From assembly GCA_947445035.1 (NCBI GenBank), contig CANFCK010000022.1, positions 16,231 through 80,230 on the forward strand: a stretch of DNA of 64,000 bases, in the 5' to 3' direction. Below are positions 45,851 through 64,000 of the stretch, piece by piece; the first letter of the stretch is position 1; the number at the start of each line of letters is the position of its first letter. The stretch comes from Deltaproteobacteria bacterium (GTDB lineage: Bacteria; Myxococcota_A; UBA796; SXON01). Under the pieces are notes generated by a model. The model worked only from the letters and a program-made list of their open reading frames with translations, made no database searches and was not told the DNA's origin. The translations under genes were made by a program, and so were the position numbers.

Positions 45851-47365
45851 CTACAGACACCCGGTCGTCGAACACAGAAAGGACGCATCCTCACCGTACG
45901 AATAAGCGGTCGCGACGTTCTCGGCATACACCTCGCCCGGGGCGTTGTCCGCCGCTGTGTCAGCGTCCCCGAGGTCGCACGACGTGGCGGTGAAGACGGG
46001 ACTGTCCGCGACCCAGTACAGGTAGACGGCGGCGGCCGTCGACGCTGAGTTGCCATGGAACCCCGCGATCGAGGCGGAGTCCCCCCTACAGGTGCCGGCC
46101 ATGCCGTAAGACAACACCAGCCCCCCGCCGGTCGAAGCGGTGTTCGAGTCGACGAGCGAGTTCACAAGATCGAAGTTCCCGTTCCCCTGCAGGTACAGAC
46201 CGCCACCCATGGCGGTGCCCGTATTGTCGGCCACTGTGCTGTCCTCGACCTTCACCGCGACCGAAGCAACCACCCCGAAGGACAAGATGCCGCCGCCGTA
46301 GTCGGCCACGTTCTCGGAGATCGTGGAGTTCATCACCGACACATCGCAGTCCACCGCGAAAATGGCGCCGCCGGCGTAGGCGGTGCCGCCGGTCATCCAA
46401 ACGTTGTCGACCACCACAGTGGCGCCGTCGGCCCCATCGCACAGGATGCCCCCACCGCCGTGGAAGCCGGCGATCTCAGAACTGGAACCGCTCCCGCCGA
46501 TGATGGTGAGGTCTGCAACCGCCAAGGTCACCCCCGAACCATCCGTGCGCACGGTGGAACCCTCGCCACCCGCGTCGAGCACCGTGGCCTCGCGCCCGCC
46601 ATACCCCGTGATCACAGCCGGGCCCGTCACGGTGATGTTGGTGAACCAGAGCCCGCCGCAAACGTTCAGATTGCCTCCGCTGAGCTCCGCGGCGACCGGG
46701 GAGCCAGCCTTGCCGCGCCCCAGCGCACGGGTCCAATCCGTCCAAGTCCCCGCGTCTTCGAGCCACACGCCCGCGTCCAGCGTGCTCGCGTCGCAATCGT
46801 TGTCGAGCCCGTCGCACACCTCCGACCCGGCGGGGGAGATGCCGGCGTGGTCGTCGTCACAGTCGCCTGGCACCTCCACGAACGCATCCCCCGGTGGACC
46901 GCAGTGGACGACCGCAGCCACGGTGTCGCCGTAGCCGTCGGCGTCGGCATCGGGGTACCAGCTGGTCGCGTCCGTCGCGTCGTTGTCCGCGCCGCCGTCG
47001 CAGTCGTCGTCCACCCCGTTGCAGACCTCGTCAGCGGTGGGGTTGACCTCGGCGGCGTCGTCGTCGCAGTCGGAGTCGTTGTCGACCTCGTCGGCCTCCG
47101 GCGCGCAGGTGACGCGCGCCGTGGCCGGGTCGCCGAACCCATCCAAGTCGGCGTCCGCGTAGACCGAAACGGCGTCCGTGGCGTCCACATCCGTGCTGCC
47201 ATCACAGTCGTCATCCACGTCGTTGCAGCGCTCGTCGGCGTCCGGGTGCACGGCCGCGTCGGCGTCATCGCAGTCGTCGACGGCAGCGAATCCATCGCCG
47301 TCGCCGTCGGCCGGGATTTCGGGACAACCGAAGAGGGCCAGCATCAACACCGACAAACAGGTCAT
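45851..47365 (-). CDS. MopE-type metal-binding lipoprotein with beta-helix domain
   Basis: A 504-residue exported lipoprotein (lipobox LALFGC). Residues 20-200 hold four MopE-like repeats of the form DxDxDGFGD...DCDDDAAEVNPTADEVCNGVDDDCDG, rich in Asp and with paired cysteines, likely calcium-binding. The C-terminal 300 residues form a right-handed beta-helix (e.g. VTLAVADLTIIGGSG, CDVSVMNSTISENVADYGGGILSFG). No MYXO-CTERM tail; lipid anchoring replaces it. The ATG overlaps the stop of the giant gene (ATGA), so the two are translationally coupled and probably form one surface system. Confidence 0.78.
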   Translation of the reverse strand: MTCLSVLMLALFGCPEIPADGDGDGFAAVDDCDDADAAVHPDADERCNDVDDDCDGSTDVDATDAVSVYADADLDGFGDPATARVTCAPEADEVDNDSDCDDDAAEVNPTADEVCNGVDDDCDGGADNDATDATSWYPDADADGYGDTVAAVVHCGPPGDAFVEVPGDCDDDHAGISPAGSEVCDGLDNDCDASTLDAGVWLEDAGTWTDWTRALGRGKAGSPVAAELSGGNLNVCGGLWFTNITVTGPAVITGYGGREATVLDAGGEGSTVRTDGSGVTLAVADLTIIGGSGSSSEIAGFHGGGGILCDGADGATVVVDNVWMTGGTAYAGGAIFAVDCDVSVMNSTISENVADYGGGILSFGVVASVAVKVEDSTVADNTGTAMGGGLYLQGNGNFDLVNSLVDSNTASTGGGLVLSYGMAGTCRGDSASIAGFHGNSASTAAAVYLYWVADSPVFTATSCDLGDADTAADNAPGEVYAENVATAYSYGEDASFLCSTTGCL

Positions 47366-50300
47366 GCGCGCTTCCTGGTCGGCCATCGCACCCCGCTCCG
47401 CCGACGCCGCATCCCCACCGCCACCGCGCCAACCAAGAGCCCCCAACCGACGGCGGAGCCGCCGCTGGCGCATTGGCACTCGTCGTCCTTGCCGCCGCCG
47501 TCGCCGCTGTCCTCGCCGCTGTCGGTGTCCGCTCCGGCGTCGACGCCGTCGCAGTCCTGGTCGATGCCGTCGCCGAGGAGGTCGAGGCCTCCGGGGCTGA
47601 TGGCGCCGTCGGCGTCGTTGCAGTCGTCCTCGGTGGCGGCGGCGTAGCCTTCGGGGGCCGTGCACTCCACGATCGAGACGGCGGGGTCGGTGTACCCGTC
47701 CTGGTCGGCGTCAGCGTACCAGGTGGGGGCGTCAGTGGCGCCGATGTCGTTGGTGCCGTCGCAGTCGTCGTCGAGGCCGTTGCAGACTTCGATGGCGCCG
47801 GGGTTGACGCCGGGGTTGCTGTCGTTGCATTCCTCACAGGCCGGGAAGGTGTCGGCATCCGCGTCGGCGTAGCCCACCGACCCATCGCAATTGTAGTCGT
47901 TGGGGTCGGTGCAGTCGTCCTCGGTGGCGCCTGGGTAGTAGAGCGCGCTGGCATCGTCACAATCGCCGGCGGGGTCGAGGTCTGAGGCCTCACCGGCGTC
48001 GTCGCAGTACACGTCCGCGCTCACGATTGTTGCGGGGGCGTCGGTGGTGTAGCCATCGTCGTCGGCGTCGACGACGCAGATCTCGGTGCCGTTGCAGTCG
48101 CCGTCCATCTCGTCGCCGGCGACTTCCGAGGCGTCGGGGTTGGCCCCCGCCTCGGCGTCGTTGCAGTCTTCGCAGGCGATGTACCCGTCGCCATCGACGT
48201 CTTCGCTGCCGACGGAGCCGTCGCAGTTGTTGTCGACGGTGCCGGCGCAGTCGGTCTCGGCGGCGCCTGGGTAGACGGCCGCAGAAGCGTCGTCGCACTC
48301 GGCGCAGGCGGTGAAGCCGTCGCCGTCAGCGTCGTCGGTGCCGACAGAGCCATCGCAGTTGTAGTCGATCGGGTCCGCGCAGTCGGACTCGTCGGCGCCG
48401 GGGTGTACGTCGGAGCGGGCTTCGTCGCAGTCGCCTGCGCCCGCGATGAGGGTCGTGGCGGGGTCGTCACAGGCGTCGACGGTCGAGCTGCCCGTGTACC
48501 CGTCGCCGTCCTCGTCGATGGAGAACGCCGCCGTTCCGGAGGCGCCGCTGTCGAGATCGTCGGCGAGGCCGTCGCAATCCTCGTCGGTGTTCGCCGCGTC
48601 GCAGAACTCGGTCGCAGCGGGGTTGATGGCGGCGACAGCGTCGTCGCAGTCGGTCGCGGAGGCGGCGCCCGTGCCAGACACGCAGTCGAGCGTGGAGCCG
48701 TCGATGACGACGCTGGTGCCGTAGCCGTCGGCGTCGGCATCGGTGTAGCAGTCGTCCACGCTGTCGCAGTCCTGGTCGATGCTATCGGCCACGACCTCGG
48801 CGGCGCCGCTGTTGATCGAGGCGTCGGCGTCGTCGCAGTCGGTGGCGGTCGAAGCGCCGGTGCCGGATACGCAGTCCAAGGACGAGCCGTCGACGAGCGC
48901 CGAGACCCCGTAGTTGTCGCCGTCGGCGTCGGTGTAGCAGGTGTCGATGCTGTCGCAGTTCTGGTCGATGCCGTCGGCGACCGTCTCGGCCGCGCTCGGG
49001 TACACGCTGGAGGACCCGTCGTCACAGTCGTCGTTGGTGCCCGCACCGGCGCCCGTCACGCAGGACAACGAAGAGCCGTCGCCGATGACGAGGGTCCCGA
49101 AGTTGTCGCCGTCGGCGTCGGTGTAGCAGGAGTCGACGCTGTCGCAGTCCTGGTCGATGCTGTCTGCCACCACTTCAATGCCGGCCGGATTGATCGAGGC
49201 GCTGCTGTCATCGCAGTCGGTCGCGACCGCCGAGCCGCTGCCGCTGCTGCAGGACAGGCTGGAGCCGTCCACGAGCGTGGCGATGCCGTAGTTGTCCCCG
49301 TCGCCGTCGGTGTAGCAGGTGTCCACGCTGTCGCAGTCCTGGTCCACCCCGTCCGCGGTGACCTCGGTAGCGCCGGGGTAGACGGTGCCGACGGCGTCGT
49401 CACAATCGGTTCCGGTCGCGACGTAGCCGCTGGAGGCGCTTCCGCGCGAGACCGCGGTCAACAACGGGTTCCCGTACCCGTCGCTGTCGGCATCGGCGTA
49501 CACGGTGTCGCCGAGGGTGAAGACCTGGGCGGCCATCGGCTCGCCCGATCGGCCGCCGTAAAACCAGCTGCCCCAGCCTTGGCTGCGGGCTTCCGCGGGC
49601 AGCGCAACCACGCGGGCACGCCAGTGGTAGCCAATGCCGGCGTCCAGGCCGGTGATCGCTTCGTCGATGGTGACGCCGCTGAGCCCGGAGCTGACGCCGG
49701 TTGTGGAGGTCACGAAATCGGTGCCATCGAACGCCGTCCCCAGCTCCTTGACCTCGATCTGGAGCTTGACGCGGGCACGACCCCACGGGCCGCGCGCGGT
49801 GGTCATCGCCACGTCAAAGGCCGAAGCGGACGACGAGGAGAGGCCGGCCGAGATCGGCGTGCTGGCGCCTGACTGACGGGCCTGGCCGACGCGGGCGAGG
49901 GGCGTGGTGTCGTCGGCGCCGTTGCCGAGGTAGACGCCGGCCTGGCCTTCGTTGGTCGAGCCGTTGTCGTAAAGAAAGGCGCCCACGATGACATCGCCGA
50001 AGCCGTCGCCGTTGACGTCACCCGCCGCGGCGACCGAGGTACCGAAGTAGGCCGAGGTCTGATCGGCCTCGGCGGTCCACGACGCGGCGGTGGCGAGGCC
50101 AGAGGCCGAGCCCACGTAGACCGAGGCTTGACCCTCGTTGGAGGAGCCGTTGTCGTAGTACGCGGCACCGACAATCACGTCGGCGTAGCCGTTGCCGTCG
50201 ACATCGCCGGCCGAGCCCACCGACGCGCCGAAGAAGGCGGAAGCCTGGCCCGATTCAGCCGACCACGCCGCGGTCGTCGCCAGGCCAGAGACCGAGCCGA

Positions 50301-53208
50301 GGTAGACGAAGGCCGCACCCTCGTCGGTGGACCCGTTGTCGTAGCCTTCGGCGCCGATGATGACGTCGCTGTACCCGTCCCCGTCCACGTCCCCGGCCGA
50401 GGCGACGGAGACCCCGAAGGCGGCCGAGGCCTGGTCGGACTCCGCGGTCCAGGCCGCGCTGGTCGCGAGGCCCCCGGCCGAGCCGAGGTAGACCGAGGCC
50501 CGGCCCTCGTCGGCGGAGCCGTTGTCGTAGCCCTCGGCCCCGATGATCACGTCGGCATAGCCGTCGCCATCGACGTCGCCGGCGGTGGCGACCGAGCCGC
50601 CCAAGTTGGCCCCGGTCTGGTCCGACTCGTCGGTCCAAGCGGCGGCGGTGGCCAGGCCCGATGCCGAGCCGTAGTAGACGTAGGCCAGGCCTTCGTCGGT
50701 AGACCCGTTGTCGTAATCGGGAGCGCCCACGATCACGTCGCCGTAGCCGTCCCCATTGACATCGCCTGCCCACGCCACCGCGGCGCCGTAGTGAGCGGAG
50801 ACCTGATCGGCCTGCCCGGTCCATGCGGCGCTGGTGGCAAGCCCGGAGGACGAGCCGAGGTAGACAAACGCCGCGCCCTCGTTGGACGAGCCGTCATCGT
50901 AGTTGTAGGCGCCCACGATCACGTCGCCATAGCCGTCGCCGTTGACGTCACCCGCGGACGCCACCGAAGCGCCGTACGCCGCGGAGGCCTGGTTGGCTTC
51001 GCCCGTCCACGCGGCGGTCGTCGCGACACCGGTGGAGGTGCCCAGGTACACAAAAGCGACACCTTCGTCGGTAGAGCCGTTGTCGTAGCCGTAGGCGCCG
51101 ACAATCACGTCGCCGTAGCCGTCGCCGTTGACGTCACCCGCGGACGCCACCGAAGCGCCGGCGTAGGCCGAGGTCTGGCCGGCCTCGCCGGTCCACGCCG
51201 AGGCGGTGCCCAGACCGGCGCCCGAGCCCTTGTATAGCGAGACGGAGCCTTCGTCCGTGGAGCCGTTGTCGTAGGCGTAGGAGCCCACCAGCACGTCGCC
51301 GAACCCGTCGCCATCGACATCGCCCGCGGACGCCACAGAGAAGCCGGCGTAGGCCGCTGCCTGGCCCGATTCGGCGCTCCATGCGGCGGTGGTGGCGAGG
51401 CCACCCGAGGAGCCGTAAAACGCGAAGGCCGCGCCTTCATCGGTGCTGCCGTTGTCGTAGGCGTAGGCGCCCACGACCACGTCGCCATAGCCGTCACCGT
51501 TGATGTCGCCCGCGCCGGCGACCGACCAGCCGAAGTAGGCCGCTGCCTGATCGGATTCGGCCGTCCACGCCGCAGAGCTGGCCAGTCCGGAGGAGGAGCC
51601 GAGGTACACGGAAGCTCGCCCCTCGTCGGTAGAGCCGTTGTCGTAGGCGTAAGCGCCGACGACCAGATCTCCGTAGCCGTCGCCATTGACGTCGCCGGCG
51701 GAGGCGGTCGAGTAGCCGAAGTAGGCGCTGGCCAGGTTGGACTCGCCCGTCCAGCTTGCGGTGGTGCCGAGGCCCGAGGCCGAGCCGTGGAAGACCGAGA
51801 CCCGCCCCTCGTCGGTGGAGCCGTTGTCGTAGAGGTGCGAACCGACCGCCACGTCGCCGTAACCGTCGCCGTTGACATCACCGGCCGAGGCGACCGACCA
51901 GCCAAACCAGGCGGAGGTCTGGTTCGACTCGCCGGTCCACGCGGCGCTGGTGGCCAAGCCCGAGGCCGAGCCCATGTACAGCGAGGCGCGCCCTTCGGCG
52001 GTCGAGCCGTTGGCGTACAGGTGGGCGCCCACGATCACCTCGGAGTATCCGTCCCCGTTGACGTCGCCTGCCGATGCCACAGAGACGCCCATGCGGGCGG
52101 CGGCCTGGTCGGATTCGGCGGTCCATGCCGCGCTGGTGGCCAGGCCCGAGGCCGAGCCGAGGTAAACCGAGGCCCTGCCCTCGTTCGCGGAGCCGTTGTC
52201 ATAGAGGTCGGCGCCAACGACGAGATCGCCGTAGCCGTCCCCGTTGACGTCGCCTGCGGAGGCGACCGACCAGCCGAAGTGCGCGAAGGCCTGGTTGGCC
52301 TCCCCCGTCCAGGCGGCGGTGGTGGCAAGGCCGGACCCCGCGCCGAGGTACACGTAGGCCCGCCCCTCATCGGTGGCGCCGTTGTCATAGAGATACGCGC
52401 CGATCACCACGTCGCCGAAGCCGTCGCCGTTGACGTCGCCCGCCGAGGCCACCGAGAAGCCGTAGTAGGCGGTGGCCTGATCGGAATCTTCGGCCCATCC
52501 GGCGGTGGTCAGGAGCGGATCGACGGTGATGGTGCCGATGGCGCCGGTGTCGTCGACGAGGATGCGGAGCCCGGACTCGGTCTGTTCCATGGTGGCGGGG
52601 AGCACCCGGCCGCGCTCATCCCATGCGGCCAGCTTCGAGAAGCGCAGCGGCGCGCCGCCCTCGCGCACCAGGAGCGCCTCTGCGCCGTCGATTTCGGCGC
52701 GGGCGCCCGTCAGCGCCAAGTCGAAAACCAGCGGGCCGGCCCCGTCCGGCGCCGCGGTGACGGTGAAGCCCTGCTCCAGGCCCTCGGCCCGGTTTTCCCA
52801 CCATTCCACGAGTCCCGGGCGCGCGTACTCGACGCGACGGAGGCACTCGCCAAACGGATCGATCTGTCCACCGGCGAGGCACGCACCTGCTTCCGGAGCC
52901 ACGCCGGCCGCGGCTACCAAATCTCCGTCGCGACCCCATGCGTCGAGAGAAAGTGAGACTTCGCCCACGCCCGCACGGGTGGTGACCGTCAATCCGTCGG
53001 CATCGAAGGTGCCGCGCAGGTCTTGGGCGCGGTTGGTGATCCGGAGCCCCTCGCCTTCCGCCTGGGCTGCGTATTCACCCGCGGCGATGCCCTGCTGCGC
53101 GGTAGCCGCCCACTGATCGGACGGGGCGCCCGACGGTGGGCCCGCCGCTTCGTCGGTACCGGGAACCGCGCACGAGGCGAGCAGCAGCAGAGCAGTGAGC
53201 AGACGCAT
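47362..53208 (-). CDS. giant FG-GAP plus MopE-repeat surface protein
   Basis: A 1948-residue exported protein. Lipobox LLLLASC at the N-terminus; a beta domain of about 230 residues (WAEDSD... follows); 14 tandem FG-GAP repeats of 62 residues, each with SVASAGDVNGDGYGDV-type calcium loops; a fibronectin-like domain (YHWRARVVAL); then 11 MopE-type DCDD...DQDCD repeats. The end, CQCASGGSAVGWGLLVGAVAVGMRRRR, is MYXO-CTERM-like. The start at 53208 gives the signal peptide and has GGAG 7 nt upstream; the track start at 53352 is too early. Likely a long, calcium-stiffened adhesin or surface fibre; this is inference. Confidence 0.82.
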   Translation of the reverse strand: MRLLTALLLLASCAVPGTDEAAGPPSGAPSDQWAATAQQGIAAGEYAAQAEGEGLRITNRAQDLRGTFDADGLTVTTRAGVGEVSLSLDAWGRDGDLVAAAGVAPEAGACLAGGQIDPFGECLRRVEYARPGLVEWWENRAEGLEQGFTVTAAPDGAGPLVFDLALTGARAEIDGAEALLVREGGAPLRFSKLAAWDERGRVLPATMEQTESGLRILVDDTGAIGTITVDPLLTTAGWAEDSDQATAYYGFSVASAGDVNGDGFGDVVIGAYLYDNGATDEGRAYVYLGAGSGLATTAAWTGEANQAFAHFGWSVASAGDVNGDGYGDLVVGADLYDNGSANEGRASVYLGSASGLATSAAWTAESDQAAARMGVSVASAGDVNGDGYSEVIVGAHLYANGSTAEGRASLYMGSASGLATSAAWTGESNQTSAWFGWSVASAGDVNGDGYGDVAVGSHLYDNGSTDEGRVSVFHGSASGLGTTASWTGESNLASAYFGYSTASAGDVNGDGYGDLVVGAYAYDNGSTDEGRASVYLGSSSGLASSAAWTAESDQAAAYFGWSVAGAGDINGDGYGDVVVGAYAYDNGSTDEGAAFAFYGSSGGLATTAAWSAESGQAAAYAGFSVASAGDVDGDGFGDVLVGSYAYDNGSTDEGSVSLYKGSGAGLGTASAWTGEAGQTSAYAGASVASAGDVNGDGYGDVIVGAYGYDNGSTDEGVAFVYLGTSTGVATTAAWTGEANQASAAYGASVASAGDVNGDGYGDVIVGAYNYDDGSSNEGAAFVYLGSSSGLATSAAWTGQADQVSAHYGAAVAWAGDVNGDGYGDVIVGAPDYDNGSTDEGLAYVYYGSASGLATAAAWTDESDQTGANLGGSVATAGDVDGDGYADVIIGAEGYDNGSADEGRASVYLGSAGGLATSAAWTAESDQASAAFGVSVASAGDVDGDGYSDVIIGAEGYDNGSTDEGAAFVYLGSVSGLATTAAWSAESGQASAFFGASVGSAGDVDGNGYADVIVGAAYYDNGSSNEGQASVYVGSASGLATAASWTAEADQTSAYFGTSVAAAGDVNGDGFGDVIVGAFLYDNGSTNEGQAGVYLGNGADDTTPLARVGQARQSGASTPISAGLSSSSASAFDVAMTTARGPWGRARVKLQIEVKELGTAFDGTDFVTSTTGVSSGLSGVTIDEAITGLDAGIGYHWRARVVALPAEARSQGWGSWFYGGRSGEPMAAQVFTLGDTVYADADSDGYGNPLLTAVSRGSASSGYVATGTDCDDAVGTVYPGATEVTADGVDQDCDSVDTCYTDGDGDNYGIATLVDGSSLSCSSGSGSAVATDCDDSSASINPAGIEVVADSIDQDCDSVDSCYTDADGDNFGTLVIGDGSSLSCVTGAGAGTNDDCDDGSSSVYPSAAETVADGIDQNCDSIDTCYTDADGDNYGVSALVDGSSLDCVSGTGASTATDCDDADASINSGAAEVVADSIDQDCDSVDDCYTDADADGYGTSVVIDGSTLDCVSGTGAASATDCDDAVAAINPAATEFCDAANTDEDCDGLADDLDSGASGTAAFSIDEDGDGYTGSSTVDACDDPATTLIAGAGDCDEARSDVHPGADESDCADPIDYNCDGSVGTDDADGDGFTACAECDDASAAVYPGAAETDCAGTVDNNCDGSVGSEDVDGDGYIACEDCNDAEAGANPDASEVAGDEMDGDCNGTEICVVDADDDGYTTDAPATIVSADVYCDDAGEASDLDPAGDCDDASALYYPGATEDDCTDPNDYNCDGSVGYADADADTFPACEECNDSNPGVNPGAIEVCNGLDDDCDGTNDIGATDAPTWYADADQDGYTDPAVSIVECTAPEGYAAATEDDCNDADGAISPGGLDLLGDGIDQDCDGVDAGADTDSGEDSGDGGGKDDECQCASGGSAVGWGLLVGAVAVGMRRRRSGVRWPTRKRA
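47530..49520 (-). repeat. eleven MopE-type metal-binding repeats (coding)
   Basis: Degenerate tandem repeats of roughly 50-60 codons in the C-terminal part of the giant gene, each with a DADGD loop and a DCDD...NP/YPGA...DQDCDS block. Boundaries approximate. The high GAC/GTC density makes long false ORFs on the opposite strand. Confidence 0.7.
49898..52500 (-). repeat. fourteen 186-bp tandem repeats (FG-GAP, coding)
   Basis: Fourteen consecutive 62-codon units in the giant gene, without visible spacer. The strongly conserved cores are AGDVNGDGYGDV, YDNGSTDEG and YLGSASGLATSAAWT. Near-identical units may recombine and vary in copy number. Boundaries approximate. Confidence 0.85.
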
Positions 53209-63646: not shown

Positions 63647-64000
63647 ATGTCGTCCATTGTGTCCTCGCTCATCCTCTTGTCGCTCGTCGCCTGCGTTCCC
63701 GTCACTGTCGAGTCGGAGTACGCCAAGGACACGGTGCCGACCATCGACGAGCCGCTTCGCGAGACCGGTGAGTCCGACGCGGACACCGATACGGATACCG
63801 ATACCGATACCGATACCGATACCGATACCGATACCGATACGGATACGGATACCGATACGGCGGACACCGGCGACACCGCGGAGCCCGACACCGGCGACAC
63901 CGCGGAGCCCGACACCGGCGACACCGCGGAGCCCGACACCGGCGACACCGCGGAGCCCGACACCGGCGACACCGCGGAGCCCGACACCGGCGACACCGCG
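63647..64000 (+). CDS. lipoprotein with Asp-Thr repeat tail, N-terminal part
   Basis: Runs off the window end; 118 codons are visible. Signal peptide MSSIVSSLILLSLVAC with lipobox, then 30 ordinary residues, then 13 Asp-Thr dipeptides (residues 46-71) and an octapeptide repeat DTGDTAEP of which nearly six copies are seen. GGAG lies 6 nt before the ATG. The acidic, extended spacer probably lifts a C-terminal domain (outside the window) off the membrane. The track shows only antisense shadow ORFs here. Function unknown. Confidence 0.72.
   Translation, partial: MSSIVSSLILLSLVACVPVTVESEYAKDTVPTIDEPLRETGESDADTDTDTDTDTDTDTDTDTDTDTDTDTADTGDTAEPDTGDTAEPDTGDTAEPDTGDTAEPDTGDTAEPDTGDTA
63782..63859 (+). 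repeat. hexanucleotide microsatellite GATAC(C/G), 13 units
   Basis: Thirteen in-frame 6-bp units (the first GACACC, then GATACC or GATACG) encoding Asp-Thr. Such repeats change length by slippage without shifting the frame. Confidence 0.9.
63863..64000 (+). repeat. 24-bp tandem repeat GACACCGGCGACACCGCGGAGCCC
   Basis: Almost six identical copies visible, encoding DTGDTAEP; the array continues beyond the window. The lack of silent differences between copies suggests recent expansion or ongoing homogenisation. Confidence 0.9.

Follow-up and report, generated by a model that had tools for sequence, protein, structure and literature searches.

Gene and domain structure of the propeller locus

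The window, by which we mean the whole stretch of 64,000 nt of DNA that was analysed, carries on its reverse strand a long gene encoding a modular repeat protein. Its parts, listed from the start codon to the stop codon after the entry for the whole gene, are as follows.

47362–53208, reverse strand: whole propeller gene, with ATG at 53208 and a product of 1948 amino acids
53149–53208, reverse strand: lipoprotein-type signal peptide with lipobox LLAS/C, predicted from the sequence
52525–53148, reverse strand: N-terminal domain with the motif EWWxNxxxGLxQGF, for which a Pfam search returned no match
51223–52524, reverse strand: FG-GAP units 1–7, predicted first propeller (unit alignment, Pfam, model, counts in relatives, mark in unit 7)
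49921–51222, reverse strand: FG-GAP units 8–14, predicted second propeller (unit alignment, Pfam, AlphaFold model of units 8–14 alone)
49459–49920, reverse strand: Fn3-like stretch following the array, assigned by visual inspection and without a Pfam match
47494–49458, reverse strand: MopE region (PF11617) with 11 acidic motifs and 42 cysteines, found with Pfam
47398–47478, reverse strand: MYXO-CTERM-like tail with CQC, a transmembrane stretch and RRRR, scoring 16.8 bits against TIGR03901 (cut-off 20)

The lipobox signal peptide is likewise carried by both orthologs described below (G007 and G018). The N-terminal domain (in the following called N-domain) is common to many proteins in which FG-GAP blades may be present or absent; it is spread over record titles of many phyla, often in bladeless form. 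A match of the stretch following the array to TcdA_TcdB_pore was dismissed as chance (E 0.6; 8.8 bits against 27). In the MYXO-CTERM-like tail, the cysteine, helix and arginine cluster were recognized by eye. The genome encodes 23 MYXO-CTERM tails above the cut-off, as well as a myxosortase-like protease scoring 113.7 bits with the MrtX profile NF040593 (cut-off 180).

Next to the propeller gene follows a lipoprotein gene (45851–47365, reverse strand) with three MopE motifs and a right-handed beta-helix, whose start overlaps the propeller-gene stop (ATGA). This gene is missing from the corresponding place in the sister species.

Fourteen gapless FG-GAP units of moderate DNA similarity

The array consists of 14 consecutive FG-GAP units of 62 residues each with no indels (49921–52524, reverse strand). 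TRF recovers it with a period of 186 and 13.9 copies (score 1943), and the Pfam FG-GAP profile PF01839 matches in 14 stretches with 302 bits, far above the curated cut-off of 22.1; the corresponding E-value of 2.2e-92 indicates that the array is real and not a product of chance. The fourteen uninterrupted 62-residue repeats reported in the initial annotation are thus borne out by unit alignment, TRF and PF01839. They had been located in the right place, with positions (49898–52500) about 24 bases off those found here. A motif search detected the strict calcium loop in 13 of the 14 units.

The units had also been considered highly alike at the DNA level, which did not hold. Over all pairs, their identity is 67–78% in DNA (mean 72%) and 55–79% in amino acids (mean 67%). 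The longest exact repeat measures 45 bp and is shared by units 8 and 9, with all remaining ones at 26 bp or below. At sites encoding the same amino acid, codons agree between units at 0.606, compared with 0.572 ± 0.009 after shuffling of synonymous codons. The excess is small and synonymous sites are near saturation, which rules out recent homogenisation. The window array is neither freshly made nor an easy substrate for recombination. An assembly artefact is unlikely, given that no exact repeat exceeds 45 bp and that the sister species also has 14 blades.

Elsewhere in the window, at positions 63785–64000, lie (ACCGAT)12 and 5.8 copies of a 24-mer that are 100% identical. These repeats are far likelier to slip than the propeller array.

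Blade numbers among proteins sharing the N-domain

To compare blade numbers, we collected open reading frames carrying this N-domain from the genome to which the window belongs, 57 relatives and named genomes, and counted blades by an iterated HMM. After removing repeated copies of one gene, 165 distinct genes were obtained, 41 of them bladeless and 13 cut by a contig end. Among the other 111, raw counts gave 7 blades in 63 genes, 14 in 31, 21 in two and another number in 15. Three counts of "8" consisted of seven blades above 8 bits plus one match of 6–8 bits and were moved to the sevens. Intact arrays in distinct N-domain genes hence number 66 with 7 blades, 31 with 14 and two with 21; none of 9–13 blades was seen among the 111 genes.

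The genes with odd numbers were inspected individually. Matches were negligible in two of the 15. Another five either stop no more than ~120 bases short of a contig end or extend beyond it; at least nine blades are present in one of these five. In another three, the blades resume in a different frame, adding up to 14 (L097), 7 (L133) and ~13 weak matches (L149). Two clear exceptions to multiples of seven are L115, with six blades and an in-frame stop inside the N-domain, and L082, in which three strong blades are followed by 173 bladeless residues.

A looser first count that admitted weak matches had also yielded 8, 9, 10, 15 and 16 blades. The bit and spacing limits were raised, and the odd genes sorted, after the earlier counts had been seen; the result is therefore a strong pattern and not a test planned beforehand. 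On a FastTree phylogeny of the N-domains, parsimony places 13–14 switches between 7 and 14 blades. Well-supported branches of this tree force just one or two of them, and for this reason we do not claim a number of independent gains.

The two arrays of 21 blades belong to a Lentisphaerae MAG (L209), where all blades keep the strict 62-residue spacing, and to a Deltaproteobacteria MAG (L186). In locus L164, a second open reading frame of the same family starts 2.8 kb past the one with 14 blades and is truncated where the locus ends.

Blade number and register in orthologs

The N-domain of the sister species G007 (contig CANLGL010000054) is 77% identical, and flanking genes are retained there on both sides of the propeller gene. 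All 14 blades are in register, with 84–100% identity compared with 55–79% out of register. The ortholog in another genus, G018, with an N-domain identity of 68%, again has 14 blades of 62 residues. Here, blades in register share 65.0% identity and those out of register 64.4%, which is hardly different (permutation p 0.27), with unit 1 above expectation and unit 14 as well, to a lesser degree.

Judged from these alignments, blade-by-blade orthology appears lost between the genera while the blade number is kept. Interior blades may have been amplified or replaced about the time of the genus split without a change in number, as we infer from the three sequences. The lost interior register makes a slow turnover at constant number possible; overall, the number of blades seems to be constant and not variable.

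This bears on the suggestion in the initial annotation that recombination could alter the copy number. A surface adhesin of variable length, with frequent recombination among units and number shifts within species, would fit a tandem repetition of one unit, the 45-bp exact repeat shared by units 8 and 9 and the register lost relative to G018. We nevertheless regard it as very unlikely, since the units are 67–78% identical in DNA, their synonymous codons are near saturation, G007 is in register at 14 of 14 blades and G018 likewise has 14.

Predicted fold

AlphaFold applied to all 14 units (11 sequences) gave one fair model (pLDDT 76, pTM 0.55) and four poor ones (50–53). Confidence in the fair model falls below 50 at residues 458–476, the start of unit 8, and in Foldseek a single integrin propeller covers about half of it. 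Units 8–14 alone were predicted as a closed seven-bladed propeller (pLDDT 92.2, pTM 0.91), on which the five models agree (89–92). The best Foldseek match of this model is integrin alpha-V (8tcf_A, TM 0.74/0.76), and integrin alpha is the nearest solved fold of the array. As the model shows, seven units of this kind are able to form one closed propeller. The 8–14 cut was chosen by us, so the model does not place the border between the propellers.

Structure prediction had been proposed as a check on two complete seven-bladed propellers in tandem. For units 8–14 it returned the expected closed ring, whereas the 14-unit model is just fair. Seven blades per ring emerge both from the model of units 8–14 and from the counts in relatives. 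The proposal of two propellers is hence supported by the 7/14/21 counts, AlphaFold and Foldseek, and moderately by a mark in unit 7 described below. One closed ring of fourteen blades could be imagined because units 7 and 8 are joined without a linker and the 14-unit model is not firm. It is extremely improbable considering that most relatives have seven blades and two have 21, and that the model closes units 8–14 by themselves.

Probable position of the border between the predicted propellers

For the border, we used 34 distinct fourteen-blade genes and expressed unit scores relative to the mean of each protein. Unit 7 lies 7.1 ± 1.5 bits below this mean and unit 14 lies 12.9 ± 1.7 bits below it. 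The profiles of the two halves correlate with 0.81 in register and with 0.61 when offset by a single unit; the half-to-half value within proteins was reached in 13 of 5000 permutations. Once units 7 and 14 are removed this signal vanishes, the value being attained in 754 of 5000 permutations. Among the interior units, the minimum falls on unit 13 in ten genes and on unit 7 in nine; in the window protein, the bottom three scores belong to units 1, 7 and 8 (61 bits each). The mark in unit 7 thus lends moderate, sequence-based support to a border after this unit, and the exact border would lie between units 7 and 8.

Growth of the array

A clear excess of likeness between blades seven units apart was seen neither in the window array nor in 13 other arrays, which were picked mostly for regular spacing and included a 21-unit array. 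Its absence speaks against a doubling of the whole propeller and favours growth blade by blade, in agreement with Pereira and Lupas (PMC9218822). In a MAG titled Bdellovibrio (L191), a 14-blade array with a 115-bp exact repeat and a mean blade identity of 77% points to a younger amplification.

A tentative proposal, to which we give slightly less than even chances, is that blade number in the N-domain family is confined to multiples of seven, with interior blades replaced one by one and other numbers removed by selection. If true, it would provide a clean natural case of a structural quantum imposed on the evolution of tandem repeats.

Proposed architecture and function

Building on the observed repeat anatomy and blade counts in relatives, and on the predicted fold, we consider it quite probable that the gene encodes a surface-attached protein with two back-to-back seven-bladed propellers of the integrin type. 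Each unit would contribute three inner strands to its own blade and the outer strand to the preceding one. The rings would then be completed at unit 7 by the first strand of unit 1 and at unit 14 by that of unit 8, which would make a linker between the discs unnecessary. Judging from the motifs, every blade has a DxNxDG loop that is likely to bind calcium and to make the blade stiffer. The array would have grown by amplification of single blades, not by doubling of a complete propeller, and closure of the fold would keep it at multiples of seven, probably because other numbers leave blades unpaired.

The protein is likely located at the surface. After export, it would probably be held at the outer membrane via the lipobox, the MYXO-CTERM-like tail or both, and may serve as a platform for ligand binding and possibly adhesion. 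Literature searches on the function of such proteins returned nothing specific. The two propellers might instead be mainly structural, forming a stiff calcium-dependent spacer without ligand binding, as suggested by very uniform and very acidic blades followed by the long MopE region. We judge this rather unlikely, as VCBS-group propellers serve mostly as scaffolds for recognition (PMC9218822).

Comparison with known propeller proteins

Bacterial proteins with 14 FG-GAP repeats, for which tandem propellers were proposed, are reported in Chouhan 2011 (PMC3192720), and in the published tandem propellers an N-terminal strand closes blade 7. Because such proteins have been known since 2011, the window protein is of an already known kind. 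It shares with them 14 FG-GAP repeats of ~60 residues, a calcium motif in every blade and two tandem seven-bladed propellers, the last as predicted here. It differs in its unnamed N-domain, MopE motifs and MYXO-CTERM-like tail, and in units that are strictly 62 residues long and gapless.

The window protein resembles integrin alpha in its predicted fold (TM ~0.7–0.76), FG-GAP repeat and calcium loops. Unlike integrin alpha, to which it is ~20% identical, it has two predicted propellers and a calcium loop in every blade, and it lacks the integrin leg. After the propellers, a search for leg domains and a transmembrane region of the integrin type with Pfam gave MopE motifs alone, followed by the MYXO-CTERM-like tail.

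Pereira and Lupas 2022 (PMC9218822) present FG-GAP/alpha-integrin propellers that are highly repetitive and were amplified from single blades. These propellers have blades that are >60% identical and apparently derived from one blade, as in the window array, whose near-saturated synonymous sites, in contrast, do not indicate a fresh amplification. A rule of seven for the N-domain family was not found stated in the parts of the literature consulted. The WD40 set of the same study shows peaks with a continuum between them, whereas the N-domain family shows 7, 14 and 21. There is nothing unusual about the protein as such. The sole novelty, and the useful part, is the sharp rule of seven that the N-domain family follows across several phyla, as it couples repeat-array length to fold closure in a way that is open to testing.
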